The notes beneath the pieces are model-generated. The model ran no database searches and was not told where the DNA came from. It was given only the letters and a program-made list of their open reading frames with translations. A program made the position numbers and the translations under genes. A stretch of DNA of 64,000 nt from Psychromonas sp. SA13A (GTDB lineage Bacteria > Pseudomonadota > Gammaproteobacteria > Enterobacterales > Psychromonadaceae), in assembly GCF_011378715.1 (NCBI RefSeq), contig NZ_WTKU01000015.1, positions 1-64,000 on the forward strand. Direction: 5' to 3'. Position 1 is the stretch's first letter, and each line of letters begins with the position of its first letter. Positions 15,899 through 26,263 of the stretch are shown in pieces.

Positions 15899-16316
15899 AT
15901 AGACTTTAGTTTATTGCTTTAACACTCGTCTGCGCTCGTCCAGTCTGGTTAGTACTTATTTATAGTGCTTTCGCCCTGTCGGCGACACGTCTTTTTTACC
16001 GGAAAAGAAACCAGTGCCTAGAAAAGGCAAAGAAACTGACACCGGATCGTTTTCTGATCCAAATAATAAATGGCTTTTATAACGCATCGGCTCTTACGGC
16101 ACATCCATGTGCCAAACGAGCCTAACCCAAACATCCTGTTTGGCTTTGCTAAAAGCCATTGATGATTTGGGAAAACTCAACGGTGGGGTTGTTCGTCCAC
16201 ATTGGGCAATGTTTTTATACTTTTTATTGAAGCTAGAGTTACTGCTTAGAGTGAGTTCGTCTGAGCTCTTCCAGTCAATTTGATGATTTTAGAAAGCCCA
16301 ACGGTGGGGTTTTATT
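15899..16316. repeat. structured dispersed repeat, copy A
   Basis: One of several copies of a ~330-bp element in this window. Order of parts: CGTCTGCGCTCGTCC; the small palindrome TGTCGGCGACA; a GAAAAGAAA block; an outer arm CCAAATAATAAATGGCTTTT (16059-16078) that pairs with AAAAGCCATTGATGATTTGG (16151-16170). Inside the outer arm sit two perfect hairpins, GGCACAT/ATGTGCC (16098-16113) and CCAAACA/TGTTTGG (16127-16143). A CAACGGTGGGGTT tail follows. A partial second tail (CAACGGTGGGGTTTTA) ends near 16316. No transposase or coding frame is convincing inside it. Confidence 0.85.
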
Positions 16317-18002: not shown

Positions 18003-18170
18003 ATTGATATTTTAGGGCTTCGGCTTTAGTCTGATTTTTTGTATTTTATTTATAGTTCGTCTGCGTTCATTCTGCCCGTTTGATGTTTATTCGCTTTGAT
18101 ATCGCGGCAGATCTTACGGCACATCCATGTGCCAAATGAGCTTACTTCAAACATCCATGAATGCAGGCCC
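18003..18170. repeat. structured dispersed repeat, degenerate partial copy B
   Basis: Shares GTTCGTCTGCGTTCAT-like and ATCTTACGGCACATCCATGT blocks with copy A, including the perfect hairpin GGCACAT/ATGTGCC at 18119-18134. The second hairpin and outer arms are lost. The rest of the 17934-18233 gap shows no gene. Confidence 0.65.
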
Positions 18171-18233: not shown

Positions 18234-20210
18234 CTATGGTTTTAGCATTAAATCTTTTAAAGGTTTTCTTATTGAACGAGACGTAGGTAATTGACCTCTT
18301 CCTAATCGACCTAAAAATAAGGTGTTCTCAGTATTAGGTACTAAAGCTTCAAACATAGCTCGACCTTTTTCGGCATTAAGCACGACCGCTTCATTTTCTG
18401 TAAATTTAATATCTTGCCTTAAATATTTAGAAAAAATTACAGGTGTTTGTTCGGGTTGAAAGCCAAGGCCTAGTTTTGCTGTTGTTAACCAAAAACGTTG
18501 TAGCGCTCGTCCTGCTGCAACATAGTCTTCAACGGATTTAGTTTGGTTGTCGGTTTGTATGGCAAAGTGAGCACAACTTTTTAAACTAGGAATAAAATCT
18601 AATTGGATGCGAGGTAAAAGCGTTCCGGCAAAATATTTATTCATAAACTCAATGCGATCCCAGCTTTTAAATAACCATTGCATTAGTCTAGCTGTTGCCC
18701 AGTCTACACCAAGTGCTTTTTCTGGGATTTTAGTTTCACTAAACTGTTTATGCCAATCAATAATGTCTCTGTGGGTATAAAAGGCCTCTTTCATGGTTAA
18801 GCGCGTTTTGGCATTGCAAAAATTAAGTTTTGCTAATTTCAAGCGGTCATCAAAGGATTCAAACCACGTTAGGCTATATCCTGCTGGCAAGGCACTTTCT
18901 AATTCTGTTTTTTCGCTACTGGTCAAAGCTCTTGTGCCCATCGCTCTACGTTGAACAGCTCTAATTTTTATAAATGGAAATAAGTCACTGCTACTCACTT
19001 TGTCATTCTCACTGTCATTCACAATGTCATCTGCAGTCAGATTAACTGTCATTTTAATGTGTTTGTCATCACTAAAATCGTTAGTCGTTTGAAGGGAAAA
19101 ACCAAATTGGGCAGCTGCAATAACAATAGTTTCAAGTAAGATTCCATGTGCTAAATGGCTTGAGTGGCCGTCTAGGTCGTAAACACAATGTTCTCTGGTA
19201 TCGGTGCCATGAATAACAAAGGATGTGTCGTCGATAATTTCAAACTGCCATGTTTGCATATTATCGCCACTTGGCGCCCAACGTGCATAATCGAGAATTT
19301 TTTCTATAGGCGTTAGTTCTACTGGTTCTTGCTGTGGAGTTGTTGGCAGCTTGCTAAGTAATTTCTTTTTGCCAATAGCAAATGCGATACGTTGAATAAT
19401 GTTATTGTTTCCACCGGGACGCCACGTTTTTTTGAAACGATTGGTATAGGCGTCAAAATGTAATCCCCAAGGTACATTAAGTACTTTGCCGCGATTAAGT
19501 AATATTTTAACAACTTGAGTGCCGGCAACACCTGATGCTAATTGGCAACCCATCATGGTAGAAGGGCCTTTTTTGTTACCAAGATCTAATCGCGTAGGAT
19601 CGACTAAATAAGCTTGTTGTAATGCTGCGGGTGTTAAACCGAGGAAAAAGCGTAAGTATTGTTCATTTTCAGTGTAACCTTCTAAACGAAAATACTCTTC
19701 AAAAGTCATTTTTCCGGGAAGAAAGTTTAAATAGGCGGTACCCATACCTATCGGGGCTGCAGTCGTAGCGGGAATACCTTTTTCAGCACATAGCTTAAAA
19801 ACATGTTTTCTGGCTTCGATGGCAAAAAAGTCTAATGAGTCAACGTAGCAATCAACATCTTCTAAAAATGCATCAGTATTGTCGTGATTAATGCCTTCAG
19901 GAAATACGTTAATCTCAACGTTAGGATTAATAGATTTGGCCATTTCGACCATAACATCTAATTTTTTTCTATCGTAAGTGTTGGTATTTGCACCGGCTTG
20001 TCGATTAGTATTTTCGCAACCAAATTCATCAAAATCAGACAGGTTAAATTTTGAAATACCTACGCGAACTAAGGTGAGTAAATGTGAACCTCCCACTCCA
20101 CCCATTCCAGCTATGGCTATTCTTTTGGTTTTTAGAATTGCTTGTTCATCTTCAGTAAACCAGCCAAGATTTCGAGAAAAGGCAAGGTCATAGCTAAAAG
20201 CATCGCTCAT
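18234..20210 (-). CDS. ThiF-type adenylating domain fused to a nitroreductase-like domain (Rv1355c-like)
   Basis: A 658-residue two-domain protein. Residues about 15-260 are an E1/ThiF/MoeB-like ATP-binding fold: the glycine loop IAIAGMGGVGGSHL, the acidic DFDEFGCENTNRQ with the family Asn-Arg-Gln, and GPSTMMGCQLASGV further on. No CxxC zinc pair is seen. Residues about 305-620 resemble the flavin nitroreductase fold (ILDYARWAPSGDNMQTWQFE, then AGRALQRFWLTTAKLGLGFQ near the end). Such fusions are known, for example the Rv1355c family, but their reaction is not established. It follows the N-acyl amino acid synthase-like gene after 11 bases, so they form an operon. An adenylate-then-reduce step on a small acyl molecule is only a guess. 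Confidence 0.85.
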   Translation of the reverse strand: MSDAFSYDLAFSRNLGWFTEDEQAILKTKRIAIAGMGGVGGSHLLTLVRVGISKFNLSDFDEFGCENTNRQAGANTNTYDRKKLDVMVEMAKSINPNVEINVFPEGINHDNTDAFLEDVDCYVDSLDFFAIEARKHVFKLCAEKGIPATTAAPIGMGTAYLNFLPGKMTFEEYFRLEGYTENEQYLRFFLGLTPAALQQAYLVDPTRLDLGNKKGPSTMMGCQLASGVAGTQVVKILLNRGKVLNVPWGLHFDAYTNRFKKTWRPGGNNNIIQRIAFAIGKKKLLSKLPTTPQQEPVELTPIEKILDYARWAPSGDNMQTWQFEIIDDTSFVIHGTDTREHCVYDLDGHSSHLAHGILLETIVIAAAQFGFSLQTTNDFSDDKHIKMTVNLTADDIVNDSENDKVSSSDLFPFIKIRAVQRRAMGTRALTSSEKTELESALPAGYSLTWFESFDDRLKLAKLNFCNAKTRLTMKEAFYTHRDIIDWHKQFSETKIPEKALGVDWATARLMQWLFKSWDRIEFMNKYFAGTLLPRIQLDFIPSLKSCAHFAIQTDNQTKSVEDYVAAGRALQRFWLTTAKLGLGFQPEQTPVIFSKYLRQDIKFTENEAVVLNAEKGRAMFEALVPNTENTLFLGRLGRGQLPTSRSIRKPLKDLMLKP

Positions 20211-20221
20211 TATAAGGCTCT

Positions 20222-21019
20222 CTATCTATCAGTTACATCGGTACTTGGAATTTTAAAGGGTTCGTTATTATATTGTTTTAGTGCTATTTGCTCGGCCATT
20301 TCTTTATAAATAATGGCATATAAAGCTTCAAGTTGTTCAGTGAGATCTTTATGAAAATCATTTGCCGCTAAATAAAACATGGCGCGTTGGCCATGATAAT
20401 CGGTTTCATCACCAATTTGTTGGAAAGGTAGTCCAAAACGCTTCAAGCGTCTATTCAGCCTTGGCTCCATCATCACCACCATGCCTTGGTGTTGACATAA
20501 ACTTGCTAATGCAATGCCGCCTAAGTACAACCCCATCGCGATATTAGGAAAGTTTCGACGTTCTTCTTCTGAATAGATGGTTTCTGGATTAATGTTATTA
20601 AGTACATAAGGTACATTTTTTTCTTTTTCACGACGTCTAAACGAAGCAAGCACAGCTAAGCGTGATATTTCACCAAAACTACCACGAGGTAAGGTGCTGG
20701 TATCAAACACTTCTTTTCTTGCGCTGTGTAGACAATTCGTCTCAAAAGGTAATTGTTTGTTAGGAACATCGGTTGGAGGGATTATTAAGCGGATACACCC
20801 TGCAAAGACGCCTGTGCGTCTATGTTCTAATAAGCAATGATATGCGTAGTCGTCGCATTCATCAGATTCCATTTCTTGCTCATTTTCGGGTTCCCAGCCT
20901 AATTCAGAACTATAAACACCGTATCTGATTTTGAATGCTTCTTGTCTGAGTTCTTTTGTATCAGCAAATCGTATTTTGAAGAATTGATTAAAGTTTTCCG
21001 CAATTGAATATTGAGTCAT
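20222..21019 (-). CDS. N-acyl amino acid synthase / PEP-CTERM-exosortase-associated acyltransferase
   Basis: A 265-residue protein of the LuxI/GNAT-like fold. FKIRYGVYSSELGWEPE, the acidic ESDECDDYAYHCLLEHRRTG and IRLIIPP, then FGEISRLAVLASFRRR, match the PEP-CTERM/exosortase-associated acyltransferase family. Members of that family have been reported to make long-chain N-acyl amino acids. The product here is unknown. The gene starts a two-gene operon with the ThiF-nitroreductase fusion, and a PEP-CTERM protein is encoded 2.9 kb away (23896-24651). An exosortase is not in the window. Confidence 0.85.
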   Translation of the reverse strand: MTQYSIAENFNQFFKIRFADTKELRQEAFKIRYGVYSSELGWEPENEQEMESDECDDYAYHCLLEHRRTGVFAGCIRLIIPPTDVPNKQLPFETNCLHSARKEVFDTSTLPRGSFGEISRLAVLASFRRREKEKNVPYVLNNINPETIYSEEERRNFPNIAMGLYLGGIALASLCQHQGMVVMMEPRLNRRLKRFGLPFQQIGDETDYHGQRAMFYLAANDFHKDLTEQLEALYAIIYKEMAEQIALKQYNNEPFKIPSTDVTDR

Positions 21020-21174
21020 TGTTCGTTAGCAATTTCAAAGGTTATATTATGTATCATCGAATATAGCAGTTATAAATTGTTTCACCTTGTTTTTATTGAT
21101 ACTTAATTGATACGTGTCAGTAAATATTAAGGAAATAACCTCAAATTTAAAGCTTTACGATTTTAGTCACTATG

Positions 21175-22015
21175 TCACACGCATTTAAAAATAAATGTCT
21201 CGATTTTGTTTTATTACCGATCTGCGCTTACGGTACATCCATGCGCCAAACGAGCCTAACCCAAACATTCTGTTTGGCTTTACTAAAAGCGATTAATTAT
21301 TTGGGAAAACTTAACGGTGGGGTTATTCGTCCACATTGAGTAATGTTTTATGCTTTTTGTTGAAGCTAGAGTTACTGCTTAGAGTGATTTCGTCTGCGCT
21401 CATCCGGTCTACTTGATATTTATTATCAGTGGTTTCGCCCTGTCGGCGACACGTCTTTCTTTTATCAGAAAAGAAAGGCGGCAAAGAAACTGACACCGAG
21501 TCGTTTTCTGATCCAAATAATAAATGGCTTTTATAACGCACCGGCTCTTACGGCACATCCATGTGCCAAACGAGCCTAACCCAAACATCCTGTTTGGCTT
21601 TGCTAAAAGCCATTGATGATTTGGGAAAACTCAACGGTGAGATTGTCCGTCCACATTGAGCAATATTTTTATGCATTTTATTGAAGCTAATGCTTTGGAT
21701 GGGTTGGCTTTGAGTTAGGTTCGTCTGTGCTCATCGAGCAAGCTTGATATTTATTGTCAGTGGTTTCACCCTGTTGGCGACACGTCTTTCTTTTATCAGA
21801 AAAGAAACCAGTACCCAGAAAAGTCAAAAGAACTGACGCTGAATCGTTTTCAAACCCAAATAATATAAATGGCTTTTATAACGCACCGGCTCTTACGGCA
21901 CATCGATGTGCCAAACGAGCCTAACCCAAACATCTTGTTTGGTTTTACTAAAAGCCATTGATGATTTGGGAAAACTCAACGGTGAGATTGTCCGTCCATG
22001 ATAGGCAATGTTAAC
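21175..22015. repeat. structured dispersed repeat, tandem copies C (partial), D and E
   Basis: Two and a half copies of the element of copy A in direct tandem with a period of about 320-345 bases (common block CCAAACGAGCCTAACCC at about 21245, 21566 and 21911). D keeps both outer arms (21512-21532 and 21604-21624) and both inner hairpins. E varies in the loops (GGCACATCGATGTGCC; CCAAACATCTTGTTTGG) but keeps the stems. C has GGTACATCCATGCGCC with a weakened stem. Short open frames in here are incidental. Confidence 0.87.
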
Positions 22016-22251
22016 TGCTTATTTTATTCAGCGAGGCAAAACTATAATCTATTTTTCACATAATCTATTTGGTTCTGCATTTCCACCATAAGTGTGGGAT
22101 TATTCTGTCTATCTACATGACTAAGGTTTCAGTTTTATTTTTAACTTGTTGATTAGTTTATTCAGCTTGTTATTCTGACGTCAAATTTAAATAAATAATC
22201 GCGTTCTATCTATCCACCGGAAATACGGAATAGTTCTGCTTAATTACGATG

Positions 22252-23019
22252 TTATACAACATCAGGGTAGTGTAATCATGAGTGAGAATAATAAAATTGG
22301 CAGAATTTCTACTCAGGAAGACTTTTTTAAAAGAATGGATCTTGAAATGCCAAATCAACCTAAAATAGACCGTTCAAAAATTGATATAAATGAAATTGGT
22401 TTGTTTAAAAATTATTTTGTAGCTTTGTGTACAGATCTAACAATTTATAAACAATTATTTTCTGACGTCAATTCTATTCAAATATTAAATGAATTTAGTC
22501 CTGTAATTTTCGGTCGATTGCAATCATCCTATTTGGAAAGAATTTGTTTGAAAATTGCCTGTCTCCTTGATCCTGCAACAAGTGGTCGAGATGGTGTAAA
22601 TAAGAATATGACTTTAAGAAGGTTCACTGAACTTTGCAATAGTAATGAGCTAAACAGCTTAGTTATCGAATTAGAGTCATTCTATGAGTCAACAGGTATT
22701 AAAAAGTGGCGCAATAAAGTTTTAGCTCATACAGACTTAAAAGCTGCAATGGGGCAATTAGATTTTGAGCTGAAATTCGAGGTAGCAGACTTAGAAAATA
22801 TTGTTATATTTATTCAAGAAATTATAGATTTGATTGAAGATCCTACAACAACTTCAGATACTCGAGTTAAATTGCCTAATGGCAATGATGTGTACACTTT
22901 TTTAGAAAAGTTAAACTCTATCTAAAAATGTTGTATAACAAGAGTTTTCAAGTTGAAAAATTACAGCGGGCCATCGCTTCGCGATTATATCCCACTGTAA
23001 ATTTCAACTTAAAACGGCG
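22252..23019 (+). mobile_element. solitary integron-like gene cassette (HEPN gene plus attC-like site)
   Basis: The 768-bp stretch begins at G^TTATAC (G is 22251) and ends at the G of GTTGAAG (22252-23019). It holds one gene, 26 bases from the left edge, and ends in an attC-like hairpin. The R'' box GTATAAC at 22933-22939 is the exact complement of GTTATAC at the left edge, as expected when the R' box is formed on circularisation. The match extends to a 12-bp inverted repeat (22251-22262 and 22928-22939). No integrase and no second cassette are seen, so it may be a stray insertion. Confidence 0.62.
22278..22925 (+). CDS. HEPN/AbiU2-like protein
   Basis: A 215-residue, largely helical, soluble protein. 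Near residue 141 it carries WRNKVLAHTDL, i.e. an R-x5-H motif of the type that marks catalytic HEPN ribonuclease families. The layout (an N-terminal helical part, LERICLKIACLLDPATS, the motif and an acidic C-terminal helix) resembles AbiU2-like HEPN proteins linked to abortive infection. The family call is from memory of the pattern, so moderately sure. It is the only gene of an integron-like cassette, and defence and toxin genes are common in such cassettes. Its low GC differs little from its surroundings. Confidence 0.68.
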   Translation: MSENNKIGRISTQEDFFKRMDLEMPNQPKIDRSKIDINEIGLFKNYFVALCTDLTIYKQLFSDVNSIQILNEFSPVIFGRLQSSYLERICLKIACLLDPATSGRDGVNKNMTLRRFTELCNSNELNSLVIELESFYESTGIKKWRNKVLAHTDLKAAMGQLDFELKFEVADLENIVIFIQEIIDLIEDPTTTSDTRVKLPNGNDVYTFLEKLNSI

Positions 23020-23895: not shown

Positions 23896-24651
23896 TTAAA
23901 CTTTTGGTTTTTTACGATAAAAGCTCAAACCAACTAAACTTAATCCAAATAAAAGTATTGATGCTGGTTCAGGTACATTAACCACTGCTCCACCACCATC
24001 TGCGCCATTAGTGTTAATATTGTTTTGAGACACAAAGGTACCTGTCCCAGTGGTTGTATCCAGAGAAAGCGTTGCACCGGAGTAAGTAAAACCATACAAA
24101 GTATTATTAAAGTAATTCAAACCATAAACTGAAGAGTAACCAGTTGAACCAATCAATGTCCCACTACCATCTGCCGTATTCAGTGACCAAAGACTGTCGC
24201 CGTTTCCACCAGTTGTAGATGATAGGTAAAGGTTGCCTAAATCATCAAAAGAAATATCACCAGATGAATTATATGATCCTGTGCCTATTAAAGAGGCATT
24301 ACCGGTAGTTGTATCGATTGAATATAAACCATTACCACCACTGCCATACAATATTCCATTACTGGCGAATGTTAAACCATTTACACTTGCACCAGTATTT
24401 CCGATTAAAGTCCTAGCGGCTGTAGTTTGGTCGATAGAATAAAGTTGGCTACCACTTGTTACACCATATAATATGTTTGAAGTACTTAGTGCGATATCAA
24501 ACATAATCCCTGTATTACCAATTAAAGTAGAGCTGTTAGTGGAAATATTATAATCATATAGATTGCCATTAGCTGCACCAATAAATGTGGCATGAGCTGA
24601 GCTTGCCGATAAAATCATTGCTCCGCTTATTGCATAAATTATAGATTTCAT
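23896..24651 (-). CDS. PEP-CTERM sorting-signal protein with beta-propeller-like repeats
   Basis: A 251-residue exported protein. Signal peptide MKSIIYAISGAMILSASSAHA; then about six repeats of 35-40 residues of the form LYSIDTTTG-SLIGNTG, suggesting a small beta-propeller; and at the end VPEPASILLFGLSLVGLSFY followed by RKKPKV. The PEP motif, single membrane segment and basic tail make a textbook PEP-CTERM signal, which exosortase cuts during export, often to a surface or exopolysaccharide matrix. No exosortase is in this window. The related acyltransferase gene is at 20222-21019. Confidence 0.93.
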   Translation of the reverse strand: MKSIIYAISGAMILSASSAHATFIGAANGNLYDYNISTNSSTLIGNTGIMFDIALSTSNILYGVTSGSQLYSIDQTTAARTLIGNTGASVNGLTFASNGILYGSGGNGLYSIDTTTGNASLIGTGSYNSSGDISFDDLGNLYLSSTTGGNGDSLWSLNTADGSGTLIGSTGYSSVYGLNYFNNTLYGFTYSGATLSLDTTTGTGTFVSQNNINTNGADGGGAVVNVPEPASILLFGLSLVGLSFYRKKPKV

Positions 24652-25704: not shown

Positions 25705-25752
25705 TTTAAAAAGTAACTTATTTAAAAGGTAACCTCTTTAAAAAGTAACTTG
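25705..25752. repeat. three 16-bp tandem repeats
   Basis: TTTAAAAAGTAACTTA, TTTAAAAGGTAACCTC and TTTAAAAAGTAACTTG follow one another exactly. They lie just ahead of the larger repeat array. Confidence 0.8.
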
Positions 25753-25761
25753 CGTTTTACT

Positions 25762-26263
25762 AACAACCCTTCGTGACCTCTGTGTAGCGCAGCGCTTCGT
25801 GGTTAATTCTCTTTTTAGGTTTGCCGTTTATTTATCATATCCAAATTGAAATTATGAATATTCATGAGGTTTAATTTTTTCAAGGTTATTTATCTTTTAC
25901 GATTAACCCTTCGTGACCTCTGTGTAGCGAAGCGCTTCGTGGTTAATGCTCTTTTTAGGTTTGTCGTTTATTTACCGCATCCTCATCGAAGTTATGAATA
26001 CTCATAACGTTTAATTTTTCAAACCATTTATCTTTTATGTTCAACTCTTCGTGTCCTCTGTGTAGCGCAGCGCTTCGTGGTTAATTCTCTTTTTAGGCTT
26101 GCCGTTTATTTATCATATCCCATATTGAAGTTCTGAATACTCATGACGTTTAATCTTATTCAAACCCCCCTCATGTTTACGCTTACTTCTTGGTGCCCTC
26201 TGTGAAGCGCAGCGCTTCGTGGTTAATCCTTTTTTAGGTTTGTCGTTTATTTACCAAATTCCA
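25762..26263. repeat. tandem array of four ~140-bp CTTCGTG-type repeats
   Basis: Units begin near 25769, 25909, 26047 and 26187 (periods 138-141). Each has CTTCGTG-CCTCTGTG, the palindrome AGCGCAGCGCT (GAAGCGC or AGCGAAG in some), CTTCGTGGTTAAT, CTTTTTAGGTTTG, CGTTTATTTA and a more variable half with ATGAATA-TCATGA-GTTTAAT. There is no open frame through the array. A fifth copy is at 23147. Confidence 0.9.

Follow-up and report, generated by a model that had tools for sequence, protein, structure and literature searches.

A probable acyl-oxazolone gene pair in Psychromonas sp. SA13A and the co-occurrence of its ThiF family with the exosortase/PEP-CTERM system

What does a gene pair for an N-acyl amino acid synthase and a ThiF-nitroreductase fusion protein make, and which of its members, if either, goes with the exosortase/PEP-CTERM system after which the synthase family is named? 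We address this question for positions 18234-21019 of the first 64,000 nucleotides of contig NZ_WTKU01000015.1 of Psychromonas sp. SA13A (the window, meaning this whole stretch of 64,000 nucleotides). By analogy with characterised relatives, the pair very probably represents a new member of the already published OxzAB-type acyl-oxazolone pathway. Statistically, most genomes in which the ThiF module occurs also have the XrtA/PEP-CTERM system, which directs PEP-CTERM-tagged proteins to the cell surface, and the module is often located within loci of that system. Published systems are quoted below from excerpts of the papers given by PMC number, except where we refer to a paper's main text.

The gene pair and its predicted chemistry

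An earlier note on this DNA had described two genes 11 bases apart, and both open reading frames were confirmed, on the minus strand. The upstream gene (20222..21019, 265 aa, ATG start) encodes an OxzA-like N-acyl amino acid synthase. The protein matches TIGR03694, "PEP-CTERM/exosortase system-associated acyltransferase", with 272.8 bits (cut-off 111.95), and Acetyltransf_5 and Autoind_synth also match above their cut-offs. Its structural model (predicted local distance difference test, pLDDT, 88.6) resembles the acyl-CoA-dependent acyl-homoserine lactone synthases RpaI (Z 17.7) and BjaI (Z 17.5) as well as FeeM (Z 16.3), in keeping with the note's description of a LuxI/GNAT-like acyltransferase of the PEP-CTERM-associated type. 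Glu117 is invariant in 32 of 32 aligned rows and falls in the same alignment column as the acid of FeeM-type synthases, which is Glu in 10 of 11 rows; in Nas354, replacement of the corresponding Glu abolished activity (PMC4897644).

The downstream gene (18234..20210, minus strand, 658 aa, ATG start) encodes a predicted OxzB-like oxazolone synthetase, in which a ThiF cyclase domain is fused to an Acg-like flavin oxidase domain. The family matches (ThiF, 118.3 bits, residues 12-260; Nitroreductase, 38.9 bits, residues 295-327) bear out the fusion of an E1/ThiF fold with a nitroreductase-like fold, and so does the AlphaFold model built from 49 sequences (pLDDT 91.9, predicted template modelling score 0.77), which consists of two domains. 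The ThiF/E1-like domain (residues 1-285, 19356..20210) resembles E. coli ThiF (Z 26.5) and MoeB (Z 26.1) over model residues 4-270, while the nitroreductase/flavin-dependent oxidase (FDO) domain (residues 298-658, 18237..19319) resembles the M. smegmatis Acg homologue 2ymv (Z 27.9, root-mean-square deviation 3.0, 295 residues aligned). Over model residues 8-258 the ThiF domain is as near to substrate-bound AclA of Tenacibaculum discolor (9egb, Z 27.1) as to ThiF; a literature search on Tenacibaculum AclA found nothing relevant. Among NCBIfam profiles, PRK08223 covers the ThiF part of the fusion with 398.9 bits, above its cut-off of 266, and the fusion is not a member of PRK14851, which it matches over its whole length with 383.7 bits against a cut-off of 1170. 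These two nearest profiles carry no functional name.

The columns of MoeB residues D62, D64, N70, R73, Q74, K86 and D130, which we take to be the ATP/adenylation site, are invariant in all 10 aligned rows, E. coli MoeB included, and the E1 adenylation site thus appears intact in the fusion. The cysteine pairs of E. coli MoeB, its structural zinc ligands, have no counterpart in any of the 9 family rows of the alignment.

The same arrangement has been characterised elsewhere. In Pseudoalteromonas rubra, OxzA is an acyltransferase and OxzB a ThiF-nitroreductase fusion, as in the window, and together they make acyl-oxazolones (PMC10404671, Grigg et al. 2023). TyzA, TyzB and TyzC carry out N-acylation, ATP-dependent cyclisation and O2-dependent desaturation, respectively (PMC10404671), and in TrzS, likewise a ThiF-FDO fusion, cyclisation precedes desaturation (PMC12856293, Kleetz et al. 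2025). These mycobacterial Tyz and TrzA/TrzS systems would share all three activities with the window pair; TrzAS differs in acting on Trp, and its fusion is only distantly related to that of the window. Indeed, membership of the Rv1355c/TrzS family NF005901 (NCBIfam) was rejected (130 bits against a cut-off of 476). The clusters for thalassotalic, kyonggic and stieleriacine acids also hold NAS, ThiF and nitroreductase genes together; they differ in having separate ThiF and nitroreductase genes and opened-acid products (PMC12479983, Sauer et al. 2025). The earlier note had known of no description of the pathway and had held Rv1355c-like fusions to lack an agreed function; both views are superseded, as OxzAB, TyzABC and TrzAS, of the same architecture, are in print (PMC10404671, PMC12856293) and Rv1355c has been characterised as TrzS.

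Because gene order and domains are as in OxzAB, the route would lead from an N-acyl amino acid to an oxazolone and on to a desaturated oxazolone. By homology, the GNAT/LuxI-fold acyltransferase would N-acylate an aromatic L-amino acid from a fatty acyl thioester. The ThiF domain would then adenylate the carboxylate, allowing the amide oxygen to close a 5(4H)-oxazolone, and the Acg-like flavin domain would use O2 to desaturate the alpha-beta bond, giving an alkylidene oxazolone. The amino acid is probably Tyr or Phe, a guess that, like any on chain length, is taken from the relatives. Adenylation and cyclisation, two of the activities that the earlier note had proposed for the fusion, agree with the best evidence, whereas its third, reduction, was set aside, because the characterised relatives are O2-dependent desaturases and the best structural match of the nitroreductase domain is Acg.

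Family tree and recurrence of the pairing

A tree of the ThiF domain was built from 111 sequences, 107 of them different. The closest named homologues of the fusion come from Colwellia sp. NORP29 (71%), of a genus related to Thalassotalea, and from Pseudocolwellia agarivorans (69%). The window ThiF groups with these two Colwelliaceae, and the three are sister to Pseudoalteromonas luteoviolacea and Pseudoalteromonas sp. SMS1, the whole forming one group with support 100/99. The one Pseudoalteromonas acyltransferase scanned scores 124.9 bits, above the TIGR03694 cut-off. Of the 111 sequences, 64 carry the flavin domain in one chain with ThiF, 32 have it as a separate protein, and in 15, mostly with flanks no longer than 1.5 kb, it was undetected. 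A viral or mobile setting was also considered; one IMG/VR contig of 186 kb (L033) encodes a ThiF relative.

Pairing of the two genes recurs in other genomes, contrary to the outcome that the earlier note had named as refuting its idea. A class sample of 274 genomes was scanned for the fusion protein, TIGR03694, exosortase (PF09721) and PrsK. TIGR03694 was present in 20 of the 27 genomes with ThiF and in 21 of the 247 without (p = 1.2e-13), and in all 20 genomes with both, the two genes shared a contig and were separated by no more than 23 kb; in 12 of these genomes the distance did not exceed 2.5 kb. The pairing therefore exceeds chance. We also compared 81 loci, namely the window and 80 named loci (L034-L113), the best 80 of at least 528 relatives; some of these come from the same genomes as other entries of the tree, with L099/L009, L062/L005 and L048/L003 as identical or near-identical pairs. 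With custom profiles, a TIGR03694-type acyltransferase was found within 1.3 kb of ThiF in 39 of the 81 loci and a FeeM-type acyltransferase in 17. Pfam confirms 13 of the latter; of the others, the call in L042 is an open reading frame with no Pfam match, and those in L085, L098 and L107 come from the custom profile alone.

The pairing may also exist within a single chain. The NCBIfam family PRK14852 (989 positions) looks like a natural three-part fusion with three activities, because its N-terminal part is matched by FeeM-type acyltransferases (4 of the 9 proteins scanned, 36-60 bits, below cut-off) and its positions 308-686 are matched by the window ThiF-nitroreductase. A protein near ThiF in another locus (L089:520-1740) combines a GNAT-like N-terminus with a CRP-type part, and its cluster occurs in six loci; it is perhaps a third, regulated type of partner acyltransferase. 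Among the 80 named loci, 28 have a member of a macrolide-type glycosyltransferase family downstream of ThiF, at a median gap of 1.6 kb, and 11 have MMPL/RND exporters close by, each family name deriving from a single representative; these neighbours possibly serve product tailoring and export.

Co-occurrence with the exosortase system

In the class sample, exosortase was found in 25 of the 27 genomes with ThiF and in 59 of the 247 others (p = 1.8e-12; this and the other co-occurrence p values are from counts of genomes or families, with the tree not modelled). PrsK showed the same trend (24 of 27 and 52 of 247, respectively). Counted by family, exosortase was present in 19 of 21 families with ThiF and in 42 of 151 others (Fisher p = 4e-8; the total of 172 families is taken from label numbering). 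Four of the ThiF proteins (G166, G107, G066, G122) are on long branches and may be another kind of ThiF; with these left out the count is 22 of 23. A phylum sample of 398 genomes gave exosortase in 15 of 16 genomes with ThiF and in 64 of 382 others, or in 12 of 13 and 64 of 382 without the three ThiF-positive genomes (G000, G139, G107) that, together with some negatives, are common to both samples. Among 35 named genomes 32 had exosortase; these were hand-chosen, 13 of them for lack of nearby XrtA-system genes. Of 14 genomes scanned as controls, one (Methanocaldococcus jannaschii) passed the PF09721 cut-off and 6 gave PEP-CTERM motif matches, these below the cut-off.

Does the acyltransferase on its own account for this link? 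Genomes of the class sample with TIGR03694 and no ThiF had exosortase in 6 of 21 cases against 78 of the 253 remaining genomes (p = 0.67), that is, no link, while those with both had it in 19 of 20. With above-cut-off acyltransferases only, the figures were 4 of 13 without ThiF and 19 of 20 with it (p = 1.6e-4). For genomes that lack ThiF, the simple view that exosortase is partnered by the N-acyl amino acid synthase was thus not upheld. It is ThiF, rather than the acyltransferase alone, that follows the exosortase system, as judged from co-occurrence and linkage.

In terms of linkage, exosortase lay within 50 kb of ThiF in 18 of 40 distinct genomes (10 from the class and 8 from the phylum sample), with a binomial p = 2e-17 that assumes a rough 3% chance set by hand; in the other 22 it was farther off, on another contig, or absent. 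XrtA-system-type families were found near ThiF in 52 of the 80 named loci; where each side had over 8 kb of flank, the count was 37 of 50. The families counted were PrsT, the XrtA chain-length protein, the exosortase-A decarboxylase, PrsK, a putative response regulator and the EDSAP-1 PEP-CTERM protein; they are single-linkage clusters whose names come from a single representative (three for PrsT), and the PrsR label is putative. In the two closest relatives of the window pair, a PepA-like PEP-CTERM gene and PrsT adjoin the pair downstream on the opposite strand. In two further loci (L116, 6358-12277, G601; L117, 6550-12437, G617), acyltransferase, ThiF, PrsT and exosortase genes are consecutive on one strand, followed in L116 by a THxN PEP-CTERM protein gene. 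A custom profile found no nitroreductase within 18 kb in either, and these loci are possibly a variant inside XrtA loci that cyclises without desaturation. Nitroreductase was likewise undetected in 12 of the 27 class genomes with ThiF, and weak in one more, in flanks that did not go beyond 1.5 kb.

The window genome has one exosortase (168 bits), PrsK (455 bits) and a PrsT-like gene (338 bits, custom profile), all on contig C3, and 13 PEP-CTERM motifs above cut-off. One of the 13, in a genome of 4.57 Mb, belongs to a PEP-CTERM surface protein gene (23896..24651, minus strand, 26.8 and 26 bits) 2.9 kb upstream of the pair. By our own arithmetic the chance of such nearness is about 2%, which lends weak support; the protein is possibly an exosortase client and a putative member of the module. 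Between this gene and the pair is a gene for a HEPN AbiU2-like protein (22278-22925, Pfam 49.6 bits), which had no PADLOC match. Copies of an intergenic repeat of at most 210 bases flank the pair on both sides (16026-16235, 18056-18156, 21160-22034), and a second repeat family, of about 140 bases each, is found around 25719-26263.

We know of no work that settles either the surface retention of PEP-CTERM proteins or the proximity of acyl-amino-acid synthases to their genes. Linkage of N-acyl amino acid synthases (NAS) to exosortase is itself already in print (Craig et al. 2011, cited in PMC4897644 and PMC7293339). The window acyltransferase, as a TIGR03694 protein, is like the PEP-CTERM/exosortase-linked synthases known from that work; the difference is that here the exosortase link follows ThiF, TIGR03694 without ThiF being unlinked in the 274 genomes. 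As for ThiF, a stieleriacine cluster contains a PEP-CTERM gene (PMC7293339), an exopolysaccharide/PEP-CTERM region of Rubrivivax holds two THIF-type genes, listed without comment in the excerpt available (PMC3684757), and the available text on two tyrazolone-type clusters in Pseudoalteromonas does not mention exosortase (PMC13385065). The words "exosortase" and "PEP-CTERM" are absent from the main text of the Tyz, Trz and 2025 stieleriacine papers (PMC10404671, PMC12856293, PMC12479983), and "ThiF" is absent from that of Haft 2006 (PMC1569441). A search for exosortase with oxazolone surfaced only work on methanobactin-type genes, and, besides the Rubrivivax paper, a match for PEP-CTERM with ThiF was, from its excerpt, unrelated (PMC3226654). 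We thus did not find the ThiF-exosortase link in print, though papers outside our search could contain it.

Alternative readings and significance

From the co-occurrence we infer a role of the ThiF module in the XrtA/PEP-CTERM system. Our tentative proposal, held with less than even confidence, is that acyltransferase and ThiF, with or without the flavin oxidase, are a working part of this system and that the acyl-oxazolone or its opened acid is the small molecule of the system. That molecule could act on PrsK/PrsR as a signal, or could be a lipid by which surface proteins or polysaccharide are modified or anchored. Several observations weigh against the assignment to OxzAB or against this proposal. 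P. rubra OxzAB was not among the compared sequences, and congeners stand in for it. Neither acyltransferase type lies within 1.3 kb of ThiF in 25 of the 81 loci; 8 of these have an acyltransferase above 100 bits 2.9-8.5 kb away and 8 have little flanking DNA, but 9, six of them Janthinobacterium, have none above 100 bits despite long flanks. Thalassotalic-acid producers own the genes, yet in the excerpts on them no oxazolone is reported (PMC12479983). The fusion is absent from all 23 other genomes of the window's genus (24 sampled, the window's included; 21 of the 24 at least 90% complete) and is thus sporadic there, through transfer or loss. In the window genome the pair is on contig C7 and the exosortase on C3. 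Lastly, exosortase is absent from both Pseudoalteromonas genomes examined, which sets these two apart from the window genome with its exosortase, PrsK and 13 PEP-CTERM motifs.

How far does the chemistry go? On hydrolysis the alkylidene oxazolone could give an N-acyl dehydroamino acid like the thalassotalic acids, and the oxazolone might then be an intermediate only, the released product being an acid of the thalassotalic or stieleriacine type that acts as a secreted surfactant or inhibitor. We regard this as a serious possibility, if the lesser one. The NAS, ThiF and nitroreductase genes are present in Thalassotalea and Massilia producers of N-acyl dehydrotyrosines, for which the excerpts describe no oxazolone (PMC12479983); the opened acid may therefore be the stable end product. 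Moreover, oxazolones are easily hydrolysed (PMC12856293). In the Tyz and Trz systems, however, intact oxazolones were seen in cells (PMC10404671, PMC12856293). A surface attachment instead of a free metabolite, with ThiF activating the acyl amino acid and a PEP-CTERM protein, polysaccharide or lipid accepting it, is improbable. The co-occurrence of ThiF with exosortase would fit this, as would L116 and L117, where ThiF and acyltransferase genes with no detected nitroreductase stand beside PrsT and exosortase, but reconstituted relatives release free oxazolones (PMC10404671, PMC12856293). We give hardly any credence to the idea that the target of the fusion is a ubiquitin-like or sulfur-carrier protein, activated in the manner of ThiF, MoeB and anti-phage E1 enzymes, with the reductase as a stress enzyme. 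This idea draws on membership of the ThiF superfamily and on PADLOC E1-E2 matches, the best at 34.6 bits, and since these matches are only weak an identity as ubiquitin-like or anti-phage E1 was rejected; against it also stand the MoeB zinc cysteines missing in the 9 family rows, the frequent pairing of ThiF with N-acyl amino acid synthases, and the N-acyl amino acids that are the substrates of characterised relatives.

A different doubt concerns the exosortase link, which could be hitch-hiking, with the same lineages keeping both systems and no function shared. Exosortase occurs in 15 of the 23 other genomes of the genus and the fusion in none, the window pair is off the exosortase contig, and the pair is kept without exosortase in Pseudoalteromonas (2 of 2), in the Lucinoma symbiont (the third such case among the 35 named genomes) and in G631. 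Nevertheless, hitch-hiking would not lead one to expect that 18 of 40 genomes have the exosortase no more than 50 kb from ThiF, or that 37 of 50 well-flanked loci have XrtA-system families at a distance of about 10 kb or less. The family-level association (tree not modelled) and the lack of an exosortase link in acyltransferase genomes without ThiF also speak against it, and we consider it less likely than not.

Should these loci form oxazolones rather than stop at N-acylation, one would have to look for acid- and methanol-labile rings, of which the published ones absorb at 360 or 400 nm, and oxazolone lipids would gain a biological setting. If the module is a working part of the XrtA/PEP-CTERM system, Pseudoalteromonas OxzAB would represent a lineage that kept the module after loss of exosortase.

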